A DNA stretch of 64,000 nt from positions 310,001-374,000 of the forward strand of contig NZ_JAQQXS010000002.1 of NCBI RefSeq assembly GCF_028595305.1, given 5' to 3'. Source of the stretch: Roseateles koreensis (GTDB taxonomy: Bacteria; Pseudomonadota; Gammaproteobacteria; Burkholderiales; Burkholderiaceae_C). The first letter of the stretch is position 1, and each line of letters begins with the position of its first letter. Shown here piece after piece: positions 5,218 through 31,916 of this stretch. The position numbers and the translations under genes were made by a program. The notes below the pieces were generated by a model that searched no databases, was not told the origin of the DNA, and saw only the letters and a program-made list of their open reading frames with translations.

Positions 5218-8200
5218 TCAAATCAACCAGCGCCCAGCCGCATGCAACTCCTCTTCGGCTTGTCGGCGGTGGCTGGCCACCCAGGCCAGGTTCAGCAAGG
5301 GGTCGGTGACGACCGCTGTGTGCACGTCGTGCGTTGGCAAATCGCTCACTGTGGTGCTAACGGCCGTGGGCAGGGGTGCGGCGGCTGATTGCAGTAAATC
5401 AGTCAGATGAGGTATTGCGTCATGTGCCGTGCCGCCCGGCGTGGTGGCGCCTTGCGCGAACCACACGTCGGCCAATTCATGCGTGGTACCGTCTTGCGTC
5501 TTGTAGCTGCTGTCGAGGCCGATCAGGTTGCCGTTCTGAACGGTGTGGGTGGTGGTGGCGCCCAAGTCCAACTCCACAATGCCCAAATCAGTCAGGCTGA
5601 CCAGTTGCCCAGTCTGCCCGGCGTTGCCGCTGTTGATCCACACTTTGAGGTGGCTGAACTCGGCGTCGGCAGCGTTGATCTTGCCGTCGTGGTTGCTGTC
5701 CAGCGCCGCCAGAGCCTGGAAGCCGTTGTCCGCCAGATGGCCGTTGGCCAGCTTGGTGGCGGTGCCGAACAGCTCGCTGCCGTTGTCGATCTTGCCGTTG
5801 CCATTGAGGTCCAGCGCCAACAAGCCCGACCCCGACCCCACCCAGCCGATTTGCGAGGCATGGCCGGTGTTGTTGATGTCGAAGGACGTGCCGTGCGCAG
5901 CAGAAACGGTTTGAACGCCGATGCCCGACAAATCCAGCACCAACGGTGACACGCCCGACAAGGCGCTCAGTTGCGCTGCGTTCATCGACTCACGCTGCGT
6001 GCCGGTGAAGGCCGCCACATGGGTCATGTCCATGGAGGCCAACTCGGCGGTGCTCATGGCGCCAATCTGCGCCTGCGTCAGTGCGCTGACATTGGCGGCG
6101 GCCATGGCATTGAGCTGCTCACCGGTCAAGACCGAAATTTCAGCCGTACCAAGCGCCGCCAATTGGGTGGTGCTGAACTGCGCAAAGTGGTTAGGCGCCA
6201 AGGCTTCCACCTGCTGAACGGTCAGGGCTGCAATCTGCACCGGCACCAGGGCTTGCAACTGTGCAGGCTCCAGCGCAACGATGTGCTGGGTGCTCAGCGA
6301 AGCAATCTCGGAGGGGTTGAGCGACGCAATCTGATTGGCCGTCAAGGCCGCCACCTGATCAGGCCGCAACTCGGCAAACTGGGTGGAGGACATGGCGTAG
6401 ATGGCATTCGCATTCAGCCCCGGCATTTGCGCGGGGGCGAGTGCGGCCATTTGATCTGCCGTCAGCGCCAGCACCTGGGCCACGTTCAAGCCACTGAGTT
6501 GATAGGCACTCAAGGACGTCAGCACCGTGGTGCTCAAGCCGCTCAGGTGATAGGGCGAAATGGCGGCCAGCTGGGCGGGGCTGAAGCTGGCCAGTTGCTC
6601 GCCATGCAAGGCCTGCAATTGAACGTTGTTCAAACTGGCGATCACCGCCGGGGTAAAGGCGGACATCTGCTGCGGCAGCAACTGGCTGAGTTGCGCACCG
6701 CTGAGCGACTCCAGCTGCACGCTGCTCATCTGCGCCAGCTGATCCATGTCCAGCGCCCGCAGGGCTTGCGGCGCAATGGCCTGCACTTGTAAAGGATCAA
6801 GCGAGGCGATCTGCGCTGTTGTCAGGGCACCCACTTGGGCCGCACTCAAGGCGCCAAACAAGGTGGGGTTGAGCGAATGCAGGGCCGCGGTGCTGAGCCC
6901 GGCCAGGCTGTCGGGCGACAAGGCTTGCAGCTGCCGGTCGTTGATGGCCTGGAATTGCAGGCTCTCAAACGCATGCACCTGCAAGGCCGACAGGGCCTGC
7001 ATGGCGTTGGTTGACAGCAACTGCATGTCCGTGGTGCTCAACATGGCCAGCTGAGCGGTGGTCAGCGCCCCGATCTGCTGGCCGCTGAAGGCGAGAAACT
7101 GGCCCGTGCTCAAGGCGCGCAAAGTGGTCGGCGTCAAGGCCTCCACCTGGGCGGCGGACAAGGACGCCAGCTCGACGGTGCTCAGCCCCGGTGCCTGCAC
7201 CACGGTCAAAGCGGCAATCTGGTCGGTGGCGAGCCCGGCCACCGGGGTGGCGGTGAACATGGCCAAAGCGCCGCTGCTCAAAGAAGAAAACACACCCGCA
7301 CTGAAAGACGCCACACCACCCGCGCCCAACACGGTGAGTTGATCGGTGGTGAGCGCGCCCACGGCGCCGCCGGTCAAGGCGTTCAGCTGTGCGGTGTTCA
7401 GCGACTCCAGCTGCGCATTGCTCATGGCGCCGAGTTGCGCGCCCGTCAGTGCTTGCATCTGGCCCGTGGTCATCGCGGCCAGTTGCGCGGTGCTCACCAT
7501 GCTGATCTCGCTAACGGCCAGCCCGCCAATGGCCACCGAGCTGAGCGCAGCAAATTGTGTCGGGCTCAGGGCCTGAAAGTCAGCGCCGCTAAAATTTTGC
7601 AACTGCGCTGCGGTCAAACTGCTCAACTGCACGGTACTCAGCAACGGAAGATCCGCACTCAAAGCCGGCCAAAGCCCGGCACCAAGTGCGGCAATCTGCG
7701 CGGTGCCCAGGGCCTGCACTTCAGCGCTGCTGAACTCCAGCACTTGGGCTGAGCCCAAACTGTGCAGCGTCTGCGTGGGCAGGGCCGCAATCTGCGCGGT
7801 GCTGAAACCCTGCATCTGCGTGCTGTTCAAACCCAGGAGTGCGCCGGCACCGAATTCGCTAACCTGGCCTGTGCTCATGCCGGCCAGTTGATCGGCAGTC
7901 AAACCACTCAGCTGGATGCTACTGAGGCTGGGCATGGCGCCGCTGGCCAGGGCGCCCACTTGGTCAACACGCAAGCCGTGCAACTGCGTGCTGCTCAGTT
8001 GAGCCAACTCGCTGCCGGAGAGCGCCGCCATCTGGGCAGTGCCAAAGGCGGCCCATTGGGCTGCGGTGGACGAGGTAATTTCAGCACTGCTCAGCGCCGC
8101 CATATCGGCGGTGCTCAAGGCTTGCAATTGCTGGCTGCCCATGGCGGCCCATTGCAAAGTACTCAGTCCAGCCACGGCGTTATTGGACAGATTGGCGGCC

Positions 8201-11200
8201 TGCGAACTGGTGAGCGCATTGATCTGCGCCGTACTCAGCCCTGCCATCTGCAAGCTGGTCATCGCACCCCATTGGGTGTCAGACAAAAGGCCCAGGTTGC
8301 CGGTGCCCAAACTGCGCATCTCAGCGCTTGACAAGCTGGCCACCTGTTGCGTGGTCAACGCCAGCAAATCGCTCGTGCCAAGGCTTAAGAACTGGCTGCT
8401 GGTCAAAGCCGCCAAAGCGGCCGTACCCAGGTTGGCGATTTGCGTGCTGTTGAAGGCCTGCAACTGGGCGGCCTGCAAGACGTGAATGGCTTGCGTCCCG
8501 ATGGCCTGCATGTCCCCCAAGGTCAATTGCGCCAGCTGCGCCGTTTGCAGCGCTGCCGCGTCAACAGCACTGAGATGCTGAATCGCGGTGGTGCTCAATG
8601 CGGTAACCTGCTCCGGCGACAGCAATTGAAACTGGTGGGTCGTCAAGCTATTGACTTGCGTGCTGGTCAAGGCGCCCATCTGCGGCGTGCTCAACGCCGC
8701 CAAGACCCGGTCATTCAAGGCATGCAACTGCGCGGCGCCAAAGCCCTGCAATTGGCTGGCCGACAAGGCAGCAATCTGGCTGGTGTTGATCATGGCCACT
8801 TGCGCCACCGGCAAGGCGCCCAGGGCCGCTGTGCTGAAAGCCGCCAGCTGTTCGCCGGACAAGGCGTTGAACTGCGTGCTGTTCAAGCCTTGCAGCTGTT
8901 TGGCGGTCAAGGCGCCAACCTGGTCCAGGCTCAAAGCCGCCACCCCGGCCGCGCTGAGCTTGCCGAACTGGGCCATGCTCAGTGCCGCCAATTGGGCCGC
9001 GCTCATCATGGCCACAGTGCCGGCGTCGAAGCTGGCAATCTGGCTGATCGTGAGTGCGGCGATGTCGGCTGTGCTCAGTGCGGCGAATTGGTCGGCATTC
9101 AGCGCATGCAGTTGCGCCGTTTGCAGGCTCATGATGGCGCTGCTGCTCATGGCCTGCACCTGCTCGGGCCGCAAAGACTGAATCTGCGCAACGCTCAGCG
9201 CAGACACTGCCCCGGCCCCGAGCGCGTGCAAGGCGGCGGTGCTCAGGGCGCCGATCTGGTCAAGATTCAACAACTGCACTTGGTGAGCGCCGAGGCCTGC
9301 AGCCTGCGCGGTGCTGAGGGCGGCCAACTGATCGATCGTGAGTGCGCCAAACGCAGCGTCCGACAGATTGCGCAACTGTGCGCCACTCAAGCCCGCCAAC
9401 TGCGCGGTGCTCAAGGCCATGATGTCATTGCCGGTCAGCGCCGCGAGCTGCGGGTTGCCGAGCACCGACAAAGCATTGCTGCCGATGAAGTTCAGCTGAT
9501 CGGGTGTCAGTGCCGCCACTTGCGCGGTGGTGATGCCGGCAAACTGCCGCGCACTGAGCGCGCTCAGCTGGTCGGCATTGAGCACAGCCAACTCGGCATT
9601 GCTCAAATGACTGAACTGGCTGCTGGTCATGGCGGCGATCTGCGCCGTCCCCATCGCCGCCACGTGGGCGGCATCCAGGGCCAGCATTTGCGTGGTCGTC
9701 AGCGCCGAGATTTGCGCTGTACCCAGTGCGGCGAACTGATCGGGCGACAGCACGGCCAAAGCGGCGGTCGACAAACCGTGAATCGCCTGCGTGCTGAGCG
9801 CATGGATTTGCTCCGCCGTCATGGCACCGAATTGCCCGGCGCTCAGGGCTGCCGCGCCGTTGCTGCCCAGGCCCGCAACGGCCGCAGTACTCAAAGCCGC
9901 CAATTGGTCGCCCGTGAGCAGCTGGATTTGATGCGAATTCAAGGAGCCAAGCTGCGCCGAGCTCATCTGCGTCAGCTCGTCCGTCGTCAGGGCCTGGAAC
10001 GCCGCGTCGTTCAAGCCGCGCAGCTGCGCACTGCCCAGCGCCTGGAACTGATTCATGCTCAAGGCAGCAAAGGCGGCTGCGCTCAGGCCCGCCATCTGGG
10101 CACTGCTGAGGGCATGCAGCGCCGTTGTTGACAGCACCGCCACCGCGTCGGGCGAAAGGGCAGCAATCTGCGCGCTGCTCAGGGCCAGCATCTGACGGCT
10201 GCCCAAGGCCGCAATTTGTTCAAGGCCCAAACCGGCCAGGGCGCTGCGGCTCAGTTGCGCAAACTGGGTGCTGGTGAAGGCGGCCAGTTGGCTGGGCAGG
10301 AGGCTGTCGGCCTCAGCGGCCGTCAGGCTGACAATCTGGGTGCCGCTCAGTGCCACGACTTGCGCGGTGGTGAGCGCGTCCAGTTGATCGGCACTCAAGG
10401 CATTCAGCTGCGCCGACTTGAGCGCGTGGATAGCTTGCGTGCTCATCGCGGCCCATTGCTGGGCTGTCAAATCACCCAGCTGGTCGGCCCGCAGATAGCC
10501 CACTTCAAGCGCGCTCAGGCCATGCAAGGCGGCTGTTCCCAGGGCGGCCATCTGGTCGGCGCTGAGCTGCTGAATCTGGTGGCTGTTCAGCGCATTGAGC
10601 TGCGCCGAGCTCAAGACACCAAGTTGCTCGGGCGTGAGGCTGGCCAGCGCGGTATCGCTCAAGCTGCGCATCTGAACCGTACCCAAACCTGCCATTTGAG
10701 CGGGGTCGAGCGAAGCGATTTGTTCAGCACTCAGGGCGGCGAGTTGAGCGGTGCTGATGGCACGCAAAGCCCCGCTGCCCAGCGCGTGGATCTGGCTATC
10801 CGACAAGGTGGCCAGCGTCTGCGCGCTCAAGCCCATCAACTGCCGGGAGCCCAGCGCCGCCATTTGCGTGTCACTCAACACGTCAACCGTGCTTGCCGCC
10901 AAGCTGGCGATCTGGGTGCTGCTCAAGGCCAGCAATTGCGCGTTGCTGAGGGCCTGAACTTCGTCAGTGCTGAGCGCGGCAAGCTGCGCCGTGGTCAGTG
11001 CGGCCACCTGCGCCGTCGTGAGCGACTGCACCTGATCGACGCTCAATGACTGCAGCTGCTGGGTGGACAGGGCCGCCACGGTTCGCGTGGTGAGTGCCGC
11101 CAGTTGATCGCCCCCCAAGATATCCAACTGGTTCGCGCTGATGCCCACCACCGCCTTGGTGCTCAGGCCCGACAGCGCCTGGGTGCTCAGGGATTGCAGC

Positions 11201-11883
11201 TGGTCATTGCTCAAGGCCGAGACCTGGCTGCTGCCCAAGGCCGCGGTTTGGGCGCTGACCAACGCACCGGCCTGCGCCAGTGTTAACGCCTGAATTTGCG
11301 ATGATGACAGCACACCCACCACGCCTGAACTCAACGCCTGCACTTGGTCGGTGCCCAGCGCTGCCACGGTTTCAGCGCTCACCGCCTGCACCTGAGCGCT
11401 GCCCAGCGCATGAACCTGCGCGGTGCTCATTTGCTGAAAATTGGTGGCCGAGATGCCGCCAACTTGCGCGCTGCCCAGCGCCACAATGGCCGACGTGCCA
11501 ATCGCCTGAATGTGCGGGGTATCCAGCGCACCCAAAACCACATCCGACAGCGCAGGCGCCTGCTTGCTGGTCAGGGCGTGCAGGCCCACTGTGCTCAAAG
11601 ACGCCAATTGATCGGCCTGCAATGCGCCAAACTGGGCGCTGCTGAGCAAGGGCATGGTCTTATCGGTCAGACCGGACACCGCCGCATCGCTCAGGGCCGC
11701 CACTTGCGCAGGCGCAATCGCCGTCCAGCCCGCCAAGGGAATGGCAGCCACCTGGGCGCTACTGAGCGCGGCCATCTGGTCGTTGGTAAACGCCTGCCAG
11801 TCCGCCAGCTTGAGTGCGGCAATTGCCGTCAAGCTGAGTTGAGCGATTTGGTCTGTGGGCAGACCGGTGATTGCTGATGCCAT
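5218..11883 (-). CDS. giant octapeptide-repeat protein with C-terminal calcium-binding region
   Basis: The product is 2221 residues. Residues 1-1975 consist of 247 consecutive octads with consensus [S/T/G]-[S/T]-A-Q-[I/V/L/M/F]-x-A-L, in register from the initiator Met (MASAITGL). One unit only, SADLPLL at residues 1409-1415, has seven residues. Residues 1976-2221 are not repetitive and contain LALDLNGNGKIDNGSELFG and LDSNHDGKINAADAEF, EF-hand-like calcium loops found near the C-termini of large secreted adhesin/RTX-type proteins, then ELADVWF, also typical of that region. There is no Sec signal peptide because repeats begin at Met1; if exported, a C-terminal type I signal is the natural route, but no T1SS genes are adjacent. 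S-x-x-Q is a classical helix N-cap box, so each octad may be one capped short helical turn; this is inference. A GGAG lies 7 bases before the ATG. Function unknown. Confidence 0.85.
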   Translation of the reverse strand: MASAITGLPTDQIAQLSLTAIAALKLADWQAFTNDQMAALSSAQVAAIPLAGWTAIAPAQVAALSDAAVSGLTDKTMPLLSSAQFGALQADQLASLSTVGLHALTSKQAPALSDVVLGALDTPHIQAIGTSAIVALGSAQVGGISATNFQQMSTAQVHALGSAQVQAVSAETVAALGTDQVQALSSGVVGVLSSSQIQALTLAQAGALVSAQTAALGSSQVSALSNDQLQSLSTQALSGLSTKAVVGISANQLDILGGDQLAALTTRTVAALSTQQLQSLSVDQVQSLTTAQVAALTTAQLAALSTDEVQALSNAQLLALSSTQIASLAASTVDVLSDTQMAALGSRQLMGLSAQTLATLSDSQIHALGSGALRAISTAQLAALSAEQIASLDPAQMAGLGTVQMRSLSDTALASLTPEQLGVLSSAQLNALNSHQIQQLSADQMAALGTAALHGLSALEVGYLRADQLGDLTAQQWAAMSTQAIHALKSAQLNALSADQLDALTTAQVVALSGTQIVSLTAAEADSLLPSQLAAFTSTQFAQLSRSALAGLGLEQIAALGSRQMLALSSAQIAALSPDAVAVLSTTALHALSSAQMAGLSAAAFAALSMNQFQALGSAQLRGLNDAAFQALTTDELTQMSSAQLGSLNSHQIQLLTGDQLAALSTAAVAGLGSNGAAALSAGQFGAMTAEQIHALSTQAIHGLSTAALAVLSPDQFAALGTAQISALTTTQMLALDAAHVAAMGTAQIAAMTSSQFSHLSNAELAVLNADQLSALSARQFAGITTAQVAALTPDQLNFIGSNALSVLGNPQLAALTGNDIMALSTAQLAGLSGAQLRNLSDAAFGALTIDQLAALSTAQAAGLGAHQVQLLNLDQIGALSTAALHALGAGAVSALSVAQIQSLRPEQVQAMSSSAIMSLQTAQLHALNADQFAALSTADIAALTISQIASFDAGTVAMMSAAQLAALSMAQFGKLSAAGVAALSLDQVGALTAKQLQGLNSTQFNALSGEQLAAFSTAALGALPVAQVAMINTSQIAALSASQLQGFGAAQLHALNDRVLAALSTPQMGALTSTQVNSLTTHQFQLLSPEQVTALSTTAIQHLSAVDAAALQTAQLAQLTLGDMQAIGTQAIHVLQAAQLQAFNSTQIANLGTAALAALTSSQFLSLGTSDLLALTTQQVASLSSAEMRSLGTGNLGLLSDTQWGAMTSLQMAGLSTAQINALTSSQAANLSNNAVAGLSTLQWAAMGSQQLQALSTADMAALSSAEITSSTAAQWAAFGTAQMAALSGSELAQLSSTQLHGLRVDQVGALASGAMPSLSSIQLSGLTADQLAGMSTGQVSEFGAGALLGLNSTQMQGFSTAQIAALPTQTLHSLGSAQVLEFSSAEVQALGTAQIAALGAGLWPALSADLPLLSTVQLSSLTAAQLQNFSGADFQALSPTQFAALSSVAIGGLAVSEISMVSTAQLAAMTTGQMQALTGAQLGAMSNAQLESLNTAQLNALTGGAVGALTTDQLTVLGAGGVASFSAGVFSSLSSGALAMFTATPVAGLATDQIAALTVVQAPGLSTVELASLSAAQVEALTPTTLRALSTGQFLAFSGQQIGALTTAQLAMLSTTDMQLLSTNAMQALSALQVHAFESLQFQAINDRQLQALSPDSLAGLSTAALHSLNPTLFGALSAAQVGALTTAQIASLDPLQVQAIAPQALRALDMDQLAQMSSVQLESLSGAQLSQLLPQQMSAFTPAVIASLNNVQLQALHGEQLASFSPAQLAAISPYHLSGLSTTVLTSLSAYQLSGLNVAQVLALTADQMAALAPAQMPGLNANAIYAMSSTQFAELRPDQVAALTANQIASLNPSEIASLSTQHIVALEPAQLQALVPVQIAALTVQQVEALAPNHFAQFSTTQLAALGTAEISVLTGEQLNAMAAANVSALTQAQIGAMSTAELASMDMTHVAAFTGTQRESMNAAQLSALSGVSPLVLDLSGIGVQTVSAAHGTSFDINNTGHASQIGWVGSGSGLLALDLNGNGKIDNGSELFGTATKLANGHLADNGFQALAALDSNHDGKINAADAEFSHLKVWINSGNAGQTGQLVSLTDLGIVELDLGATTTHTVQNGNLIGLDSSYKTQDGTTHELADVWFAQGATTPGGTAHDAIPHLTDLLQSAAAPLPTAVSTTVSDLPTHDVHTAVVTDPLLNLAWVASHRRQAEEELHAAGRWLI
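5959..11883 (-). repeat. nested repeat: 24-bp octad units inside a 648-bp super-repeat
   Basis: Counting octads by hand shows that the variant units recur every 27 octads. Super-repeat 1 spans 11883-11236, 2 spans 11235-10588, 3 spans 10587-9940, 4 spans 9939-9292, 5 spans 9291-8644, 6 spans 8643-7996, 7 spans 7995-7351 (one codon short), 8 spans 7350-6703, 9 spans 6702-6055, and four further octads fill 6054-5959. Copies 3, 4, 5 and 6 start with NSHQIQQL, NSHQIQLL, GAHQVQLL and TTHQFQLL. Within each, position 3 lacks the Gln (GTAALHGL, STAAVAGL, STAALHAL, STTAIQHL), and positions 7, 20 and 25 are also often Gln-less. The period is clearest in copies 2-6 and weaker in 1 and 7-9. Confidence 0.85.
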
Positions 11884-31259: not shown

Positions 31260-31916
31260 TCAGGGCTTGTTGCCTGTCGGGAAGGGCCATGCAGCTTGCG
31301 GGCTCAGCGCCGTCTTGGCCGTGGGAGCAGCGGCAGCCGGCTTGGCAGCGGGCTTCTTCGGAGCAGCAGCAGGCTTGGCGGGCGCAGCAGCCTTCTTCGG
31401 TGCAGCAGCAGGCTTGGCAGCCTTTGCAGGTGCAGCGGCCTTCTTCGCAGGTGCGGCAACCTTCTTGGCCGGGGCAGCAACCTTCTTCGCAGGTGCAGCA
31501 GCCTTCTTGGCCGGAGCAGCAACCTTCTTCGCAGGTGCAGCAGCCTTCTTGGCCGGAGCAGCAGCCTTCTTCGCAGGTGCAGCAGCCTTCTTCGCAGGCA
31601 CGGCAGCCTTCTTCGCAGGTGCAGCAGCCTTCTTGGCCGGAGCAGCAACCTTCTTCGCAGGTGCAGCAGCCTTCTTGGCCGGAGCAGCAACCTTCTTCGC
31701 AGGTGCAGCGGCCTTCTTGGTCGGAGCAGCAACCTTCTTCGCAGGTGCAGCAGCCTTCTTGGCCGGAGCAGCAACCTTCTTCGCAGGTGCAGCAGCCTTC
31801 TTGGCCGGAGCAGCAGCCTTCTTCGCAGGTGCAGCGGCCTTCTTCACTGCGGGAGCAGCAGCCTTCTTCGCGGGTGCAGCGGCTTTCTTTGCCGGCGCTT
31901 TCTTTGCAGTTGCCAT
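31260..31916 (-). CDS. histone H1-like, Lys/Ala/Pro-repeat DNA-binding protein
   Basis: The 218-residue product is almost wholly KKAAAPA-type heptads (MATAKKAPAKKAAAPAKK ...), with alternating KKAAAPA and KKVAAPA units, and a C-terminal segment with KPAAAPKK and KPAAKPAAAAP. This composition is that of eukaryotic H1 tails and of bacterial AlgP/HC1/PhaF-type proteins, which bind nucleic acid through the Lys pairs and condense the nucleoid. There is no globular domain. An AAGGAG ribosome site precedes the ATG. The gene is monocistronic, with its terminator at 31196-31220. The repeats make its length prone to change by slippage. Confidence 0.85.
   Translation of the reverse strand: MATAKKAPAKKAAAPAKKAAAPAVKKAAAPAKKAAAPAKKAAAPAKKVAAPAKKAAAPAKKVAAPTKKAAAPAKKVAAPAKKAAAPAKKVAAPAKKAAAPAKKAAVPAKKAAAPAKKAAAPAKKAAAPAKKVAAPAKKAAAPAKKVAAPAKKVAAPAKKAAAPAKAAKPAAAPKKAAAPAKPAAAPKKPAAKPAAAAPTAKTALSPQAAWPFPTGNKP
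31300..31910 (-). repeat. 21-bp / 42-bp tandem coding repeats in the histone-like gene
   Basis: The heptad KKAAAPA is encoded by 21-base units; long stretches alternate as KKAAAPA-KKVAAPA, giving a 42-base period. The near identity of adjacent copies at DNA level (recurring blocks around 31480-31800) is typical of a variable-number tandem repeat. Confidence 0.8.

Follow-up and report, generated by a model that had tools for sequence, protein, structure and literature searches.

A giant ALTTAQ-repeat protein of Roseateles koreensis and an angular period of about 3.4 octads in related arrays

Leucine-rich repeats are built from a strand-containing unit of 20-30 residues, and the canonical RTX nonapeptide follows the pattern GGxGxDxUx. 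The ALTTAQ repeat is curated in Pfam (PF20080) as a model with a 38-residue window, and its Pfam output mentions neither an angular period nor a hierarchy of super-repeats. Among described folds, mesothelin is a right-handed solenoid of 24 short helices in a nine-layered coil (passages of PMC10035497), and bacterial ice nucleation proteins form, in an AlphaFold model, a long tandem-repeat solenoid with a C-terminal cap (passages of PMC9418140). The FrpC self-processing module (SPM; PDB 6sjw/6sjx) cleaves at Asp414-Pro415, and passages of PMC7078468 describe the reaction as specific for Asp-Pro and as proceeding via an aspartyl anhydride.

No paper on ALTTAQ, PF20080 or HeliScrew was found in the literature searched, subscription papers and preprints lying outside it. 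The same literature showed no described system of octad solenoids, superperiods or GT41 with type I secretion, and the word ALTTAQ is absent from the review PMC11514114. The window analysed here is a 64,000-nucleotide stretch of Roseateles koreensis DNA. Its preliminary description had named no function for the repeat; none was found in the literature, although the octad itself proved to be a curated Pfam family.

The open reading frame, its octads and its relatives

The giant ALTTAQ-repeat ORF occupies positions 5218..11883 of the minus strand (2221 amino acids plus stop). The protein matches PF20080 with an E value of 6.1e-237 and 765.4 bits, against a curated cut-off of 26.4, over 60 stretches. 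CAAP1 (83 bits) and LRR_EndoS (37 bits) also scored above their own Pfam cut-offs, each with 0 stretches significant alone, and these matches were taken as compositional echoes. NCBIfam profiles gave no match for the protein, and a defence-system reading was rejected, being unsupported by any PADLOC match.

Tiling of the translation confirmed the octad phase proposed earlier, exact from Met1 to residue 1975 with a single seven-residue exception, and likewise the count of 247 octads and 246 C-terminal residues making 2221. The array (residues 1-1975, 5959..11883, minus strand) comprises 247 units, of which 246 are octads and one, SADLPLL, has 7 residues (residues 1409-1415, 7639..7659, minus strand). 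Six same-genus relatives likewise have one 7-residue unit each, and the Roseateles MAG locus L062 has two. Over the 247 units, S or T is preferred at position 1, Q at 4 (154/247), L/V/I/F/M at 5, A at 7 (132/247) and L at 8 (193/247), giving the consensus S/T-x-x-Q-h-x-A-L. The protein contains no Cys, and the net charge of its repeats is -70.

The 27-octad super-repeat was recovered by self-comparison. Residue lag 216 ranked top of lags 1-899 (identity 0.331), and 648 bp ranked top among multiples of 24 below 2700 in the DNA, both as had been anticipated. At octad lag 27, mean identity was 2.90 of 8 residues versus 2.35 (z 8.3), a value reached by 0/2000 octad-order shuffles; z was 6.4 at lag 54, 3.7 at lag 24 and 2.7 at lag 81. 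Octads without Gln (93/247) recur every 27 octads, as described before, with an autocorrelation of 0.364 that was top of lags 1-119 and was reached by 0/10000 permutations. Copies 2-5 are clear (residues 217-1080, 8644..11235, minus strand; pairwise z 3.4-6.0), and copy 6 is weaker (residues 1081-1296, 7996..8643, minus strand; z 1.3-3.0 versus copies 2-5). Copies 7 and 8 are marginal, with z no higher than 1.8, and copies 1 (at most 1.6) and 9 (at most 0.9) are unrecognisable. The earlier observation of octads and a 27-octad super-repeat largely holds, but the suggested copy number of at least five and probably nine was not confirmed: four copies are clear, the signal fades in copies 6 and 7, and nine copies are not supported. 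Nor is the hierarchy singular, 27 being one of several super-periods in the family, common to relatives in other genera.

An AF2 model of residues 217-648, built from 28 alignment rows, had a mean pLDDT of 91.8 and a pTM of 0.75. It placed one helix of 4-6 residues in each of the 54 modelled octads and contained no strands. Each helix is predicted to start after the Ser/Thr position, in agreement with the interpretation of S-x-x-Q as a helix N-cap. The lack of strands led to rejection of a leucine-rich repeat; several such chains match the array by sequence (best E 5.7e-11), and these matches were taken as compositional. Short units in long, Ser/Thr-rich arrays would also suit a solenoid that binds ice or otherwise acts through a regular surface, with the repeats themselves forming the active site, as in ice nucleation proteins with their octad and 48-residue hierarchy. 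This is a very improbable reading, since the array model is helical, not beta, and since position 3, which presumably is exposed, shows the least conservation across four pairs of relatives, in which position 4 is the most conserved and 8 is next in most.

Foldseek searches of the PDB with the array model gave credible matches to mesothelin, at E about 3e-5 and TM up to 0.33 on full-length targets. The designed crystal protein 8cws ranked first at TM 0.11 and was not credited. A viral origin was also rejected: among the best 50 of 540 viral matches, which included phage proteins, E reached 2.0e-7 but TM was at most 0.29. Viral contigs yielded no relative of the C-terminal domain in a scan reaching close relatives only. 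A scan of ideal backbones found about 2 to 5 octads per turn feasible in either hand and was non-discriminating, with 227/4824 accepted backbones at 3.3-3.5 octads per turn (28 right-handed, 199 left-handed).

The same genome holds further giant ALTTAQ ORFs, missed in the preliminary description: contig C9 carries one of 2563 codons, and two more, of 1955 and 1767 codons, are cut off by the ends of C9 and C3. The latter two (C9:93509 and C3:179428) carry the same 38-octad, nearly identical super-repeat and are possibly two ends of one gene split by assembly. Two giant C9 frames (L009 7653-15341 and 15640-18000) have an apparently letter-for-letter identical C-terminal domain, which suggests recent duplication or gene conversion.

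With its own genome counted, the ALTTAQ family was found in 17/18 genomes of the genus, in 53/200 genomes sampled from the window's family and, at a stricter E of 1e-10, in 3/274 genomes of a class sample; the C-terminal domain was found in 16/18 genus genomes. In six genus genomes the window gene has a close relative, with an open frame of 2071-2136 codons and 63-69% C-terminal identity. Lag 27 was the top lag in all six (z 3.7-5.1), four of them being measured on the first 118 octads, before a tiling break. Over the array, dN/dS was 0.11-0.13 (dS 0.9-1.2) in four pairs of related genes. Around 7 relatives of the gene, 0/7 neighbouring window genes were found at E 1e-15.

Angular period and whole-turn spacing

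Relatives were collected by a contig search with the C-terminal domain, which gave at least 590 stretches. The best 80 of 562 relatives were kept, and 70/80 of these loci had an array of at least 40 octads. The spectrum set comprised 87 non-redundant arrays, window gene included, drawn from 98 with at least 60 contiguous octads. Counts of arrays and loci are not independent, since the arrays are related to one another and the C-terminal domain served to find the named loci; arrays without that domain fall outside the sample.

The averaged spectrum of the 87 arrays peaks at 3.397 octads, or about 27 residues. The band at 3.34-3.48 octads was the strongest of 40 windows in 59/87 arrays and among the top two in 74/87, leaving 13/87 in which it ranked lower. 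Further large peaks, at 2.43, 5.67, 8.5, 2.12 and 4.25 octads, fit aliased harmonics of 3.397 and equally harmonics of 1/17, the commonest super-period. Six 24-octad arrays (L071, L075, L110, L113, L119 and L121) carry a strong extra component near 4.8 octads, unexplained by the 3.4-octad rule. The window gene's own paralogs have an angular period of 3.45-3.47 octads and super-periods such as 31 and 38. In some paralogs (L053, L056, L058, L059), spaced 3-residue insertions interrupt the octad phase and may be stutters of a screw.

Mean identity excess was positive at lags 7, 10, 17, 24, 27, 34 and 44 and negative at half turns, and over lags 1-60 it correlated with distance from a whole turn of 3.39 octads at r -0.76. 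The common super-periods, which have these same seven values, are near-whole numbers of turns, 27 octads being about 8 turns. In 77/81 arrays of at least 80 octads, the primary lag lay no more than 0.125 turn away from an integer number of 3.39-octad turns, corresponding to 9/13 distinct lag values; the off-rule lags 31, 38, 42 and 48 occurred in one array each. Size covariation of positions 5 and 8, used as a contact test, gave no signal at lags 1-12 (|r| at most 0.064).

A solenoid, as suggested in the preliminary description, is likely, with the qualification that the 216-residue unit would make about eight turns, not one. A unit that closes a single turn or ring would account for 216 as the strongest lag. 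This was rejected and is most improbable, given that the super-period varies among relatives (17, 24, 38, 44) while arrays with these other super-periods share the 3.4-octad period.

Permutation tests were carried out on 74 of the 81 arrays by shuffling units inside the super-repeat, so that copies and duplication history were kept. In the window protein, the eighth harmonic (3.375 octads) ranked first of 13 and was reached by 37/10000 permutations, or by 407/10000 when any harmonic was allowed to win, a modest result. In 17-octad arrays the 3.4-octad harmonic ranked first of 8 in 43/49, and in 27-octad arrays it ranked first of 13 in 10/19 and second in 6/19. The observed share was reached by at most 5/500 permutations in 33/49 17-octad, 12/19 27-octad, 2/4 24-octad and 2/2 44-octad arrays.

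Octad alignments of relatives gave scattered small gaps in a first run, and higher gap costs were used; L043 was tiled, not paired. Three settings or pairs deviated: under one setting the window-L047 comparison yielded 3 and 13 where 10 was expected from the others, the N-terminus of L062-L042 was misaligned (42), and the lower-cost run of L062-L046 produced gaps that compensate each other (19/16 and 13/13). Octad by octad, the window gene and its relatives are collinear apart from three sites. Near octad 25, the window gene exceeds five same-genus relatives by 10 octads and L062 by 7, and L062 in turn exceeds four of those five by 3. Near octad 158, 10 octads are common to the window gene and L062, and near octads 235-243, L062 has 24 extra octads. 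The differences of 3, 7, 10 and 24 octads amount to 0.9, 2.1, 2.95 and 7.1 turns of 3.39, and none equals 27. In a wider set (68 of 78 aligned pairs kept), 29/44 net indels were in phase within 0.15 turn versus about 30% expected, the pairs not being independent, and 15/44 were off phase.

The main rival explanation is that the super-periods are only history, the arrays having grown by duplication of ancestral 7- and 10-octad modules with no structural filter. The primary lags are indeed sums of 7 and 10, with 48 (2x24) and 42 (6x7) fitting as multiples, and in many paralogs the super-repeat copies are nearly identical, i.e. recent. Against such a history, relatives of the period-27 protein differ by 10 and 24 octads, and the module lengths 7 and 10 come close to 2 and 3 turns in their own right. 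Identity excess also has structure below any module length, being slightly positive at lag 4 and negative at lags 1, 2 and 5, though it is slightly negative at lag 3 too (-0.016), a point that counts against the screw. Among the permutation-tested arrays, power tends to drop with the harmonic order of one angle, a further point against growth by modules alone. History without a filter is considered rather unlikely, though well ahead of the other rivals.

C-terminal domain and neighbouring genes

Residues 1980-2143 (5455..5946, minus strand) resemble the FrpC module in sequence and fold, a relationship absent from the preliminary description. The phmmer match to 6sjw had an E value of 5.1e-35, and the Foldseek match to the same entry had an E value of 2.7e-14 and a TM of 0.79 on target. 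The motif with the invariant Pro was matched in 101/121 ORFs, some of them duplicates; the preceding residue is Thr in 64/101, Ser in 37/101 and Asp in 0/101, and it is Ser in the window protein. By alignment to the four FrpC calcium sites (taken from passages of PMC7078468), the window copy appears to keep two loops and to lack acidic residues at two of the four sites. Several paralogs keep more of these residues.

Clear SPM homology and the invariant Pro might indicate a rod whose clip-and-link domain is active, cutting at Ser/Thr-Pro and forming crosslinks as FrpC does. The SPM homologues tested in print were all cleaved (PMC12538545), the passages concerned leaving unstated whether any had Ser/Thr-Pro. 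Such activity is nevertheless quite improbable here, given the complete lack of Asp before Pro, the Asp-Pro specificity and anhydride chemistry of FrpC noted above, and the two calcium sites apparently without acidic residues. Without the scissile Asp, the domain is probably a calcium-binding cap that does not cut itself.

Residues 2196-2221 (5221..5298, minus strand), a predicted helix with a terminal WLI, form a candidate type I secretion signal. The AF2 model of the C-terminus places a helix at model residues 416-435, with pLDDT mostly below 50. The last three residues are PLI in 46/101 ORFs, often behind an acidic stretch, and an acidic-then-hydrophobic C-terminus of this kind is a probable type I secretion signal.

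Secretion and glycosyltransferase genes, also missed earlier, lie beside the sister giants. The order on C9 is GT41, ABC transporter, HlyD, outer membrane OEP and GT2, followed on the other strand by GT2, GT4 and the giants. When the C9 genes were used in tblastn searches of 100 loci (L042-L141), ABC was found in 21, HlyD in 17, OEP in 11 and GT41 in 17, and ABC and HlyD together in 16/100; these counts include partial and low-identity matches, the flanks were short and the sole control was the window. GT41-like genes were seen within a few kb of SPM-like giants in Geobacteraceae, Duganella, Pseudomonas and Methylomonas (L103, L107, L111, L120, L126, L130). The window gene itself lies between an acetate kinase gene and a choloylglycine-hydrolase-like gene, and no secretion operon was found near it, the 64 kb containing one partial ABC match. 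Being away from a secretion operon, it would use a transporter in trans. Elsewhere in the window, positions 31422-31895 hold a 21/42-bp tandem repeat whose minus strand appears by eye to encode lysine/alanine-rich, histone-H1-like units.

Proposed secreted screw and comparison with known systems

It is moderately probable that the protein is a secreted giant solenoid rod whose octads wind as a screw of about 3.4 octads per turn, with indels filtered by whole turns. This reading builds on the repeat, the angular period present in the sequences, the SPM homology and the gene linkage of the sister genes. Each octad would form a single short helix whose residues 5 and 8 probably point inward, and the helices would wind at about 3.4 octads (27 residues) per turn. 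Neighbours one turn up or down would be units i+3/i+4, and the face shown by an octad would be set by its angular phase. Unequal crossing-over would be tolerated mainly when the DNA gained or lost is close to a whole number of turns, and such a filter would yield super-repeats of 7, 10, 17, 24, 27 and 44 octads. That 27 units come to almost exactly eight turns of the screw may be why the 27-octad repeat exists. The array would comprise about 73 turns, roughly 70 nm if a pitch near 10 A is assumed.

Export would proceed via the C-terminal type I signal, and the FrpC-SPM-like cap would begin folding outside the cell, probably binding calcium without self-cutting. With its many Ser/Thr residues, the array is a candidate substrate for O-glycosylation by the GT41 linked to the sister genes. 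A likely role is that of a long surface or matrix adhesin or spacer.

A more general proposal, held with about equal belief and doubt, is that ALTTAQ arrays are quasi-periodic molecular screws in which a non-integer turn of about 3.39 octads filters duplications. Super-repeats would follow the approximants 7, 10, 17, 27 and 44, in which every term is the sum of its two predecessors, and the geometry would be readable from sequence alone, like the heptad from coiled coils. Should the phase rule hold, a single geometric number would account for a hierarchy of repeat lengths and offer a test for any solenoid whose turn is not a whole number of units. It would also point to a group of giant rods, probably secreted and perhaps glycosylated, whose cap is an FrpC SPM relative without the cleavage site.

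HeliScrew4 (PDB 9zem) shares TPEQIAAL-type octads with the window array, aligned in octad register (E 3.5e-23), but has 120 residues; the word 'screw' is absent from the solenoid-design paper PMC12775518. Mesothelin differs from the array in being an irregular, 285-residue human chain without an octad rule. Bacterial ice nucleation proteins resemble the window protein as long tandem-repeat solenoids with a C-terminal cap, whereas theirs is a beta-solenoid of 16-residue coils. The window protein is large, acidic and free of Cys like giant RTX exoproteins of type I secretion, and its sister genes share with them a neighbouring secretion operon, but GGxGxD is nearly absent here (1/121 ORFs of the set; none in the window protein). 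In contrast to FrpC, the window domain has Ser for the scissile Asp and closes an octad array without RTX nonapeptides. PF20080 describes the same octad as that of the window protein; the ALTTAQ octad was thus known before as a Pfam family, and what is new is one angular period of about 3.4 octads across 87 non-redundant arrays.
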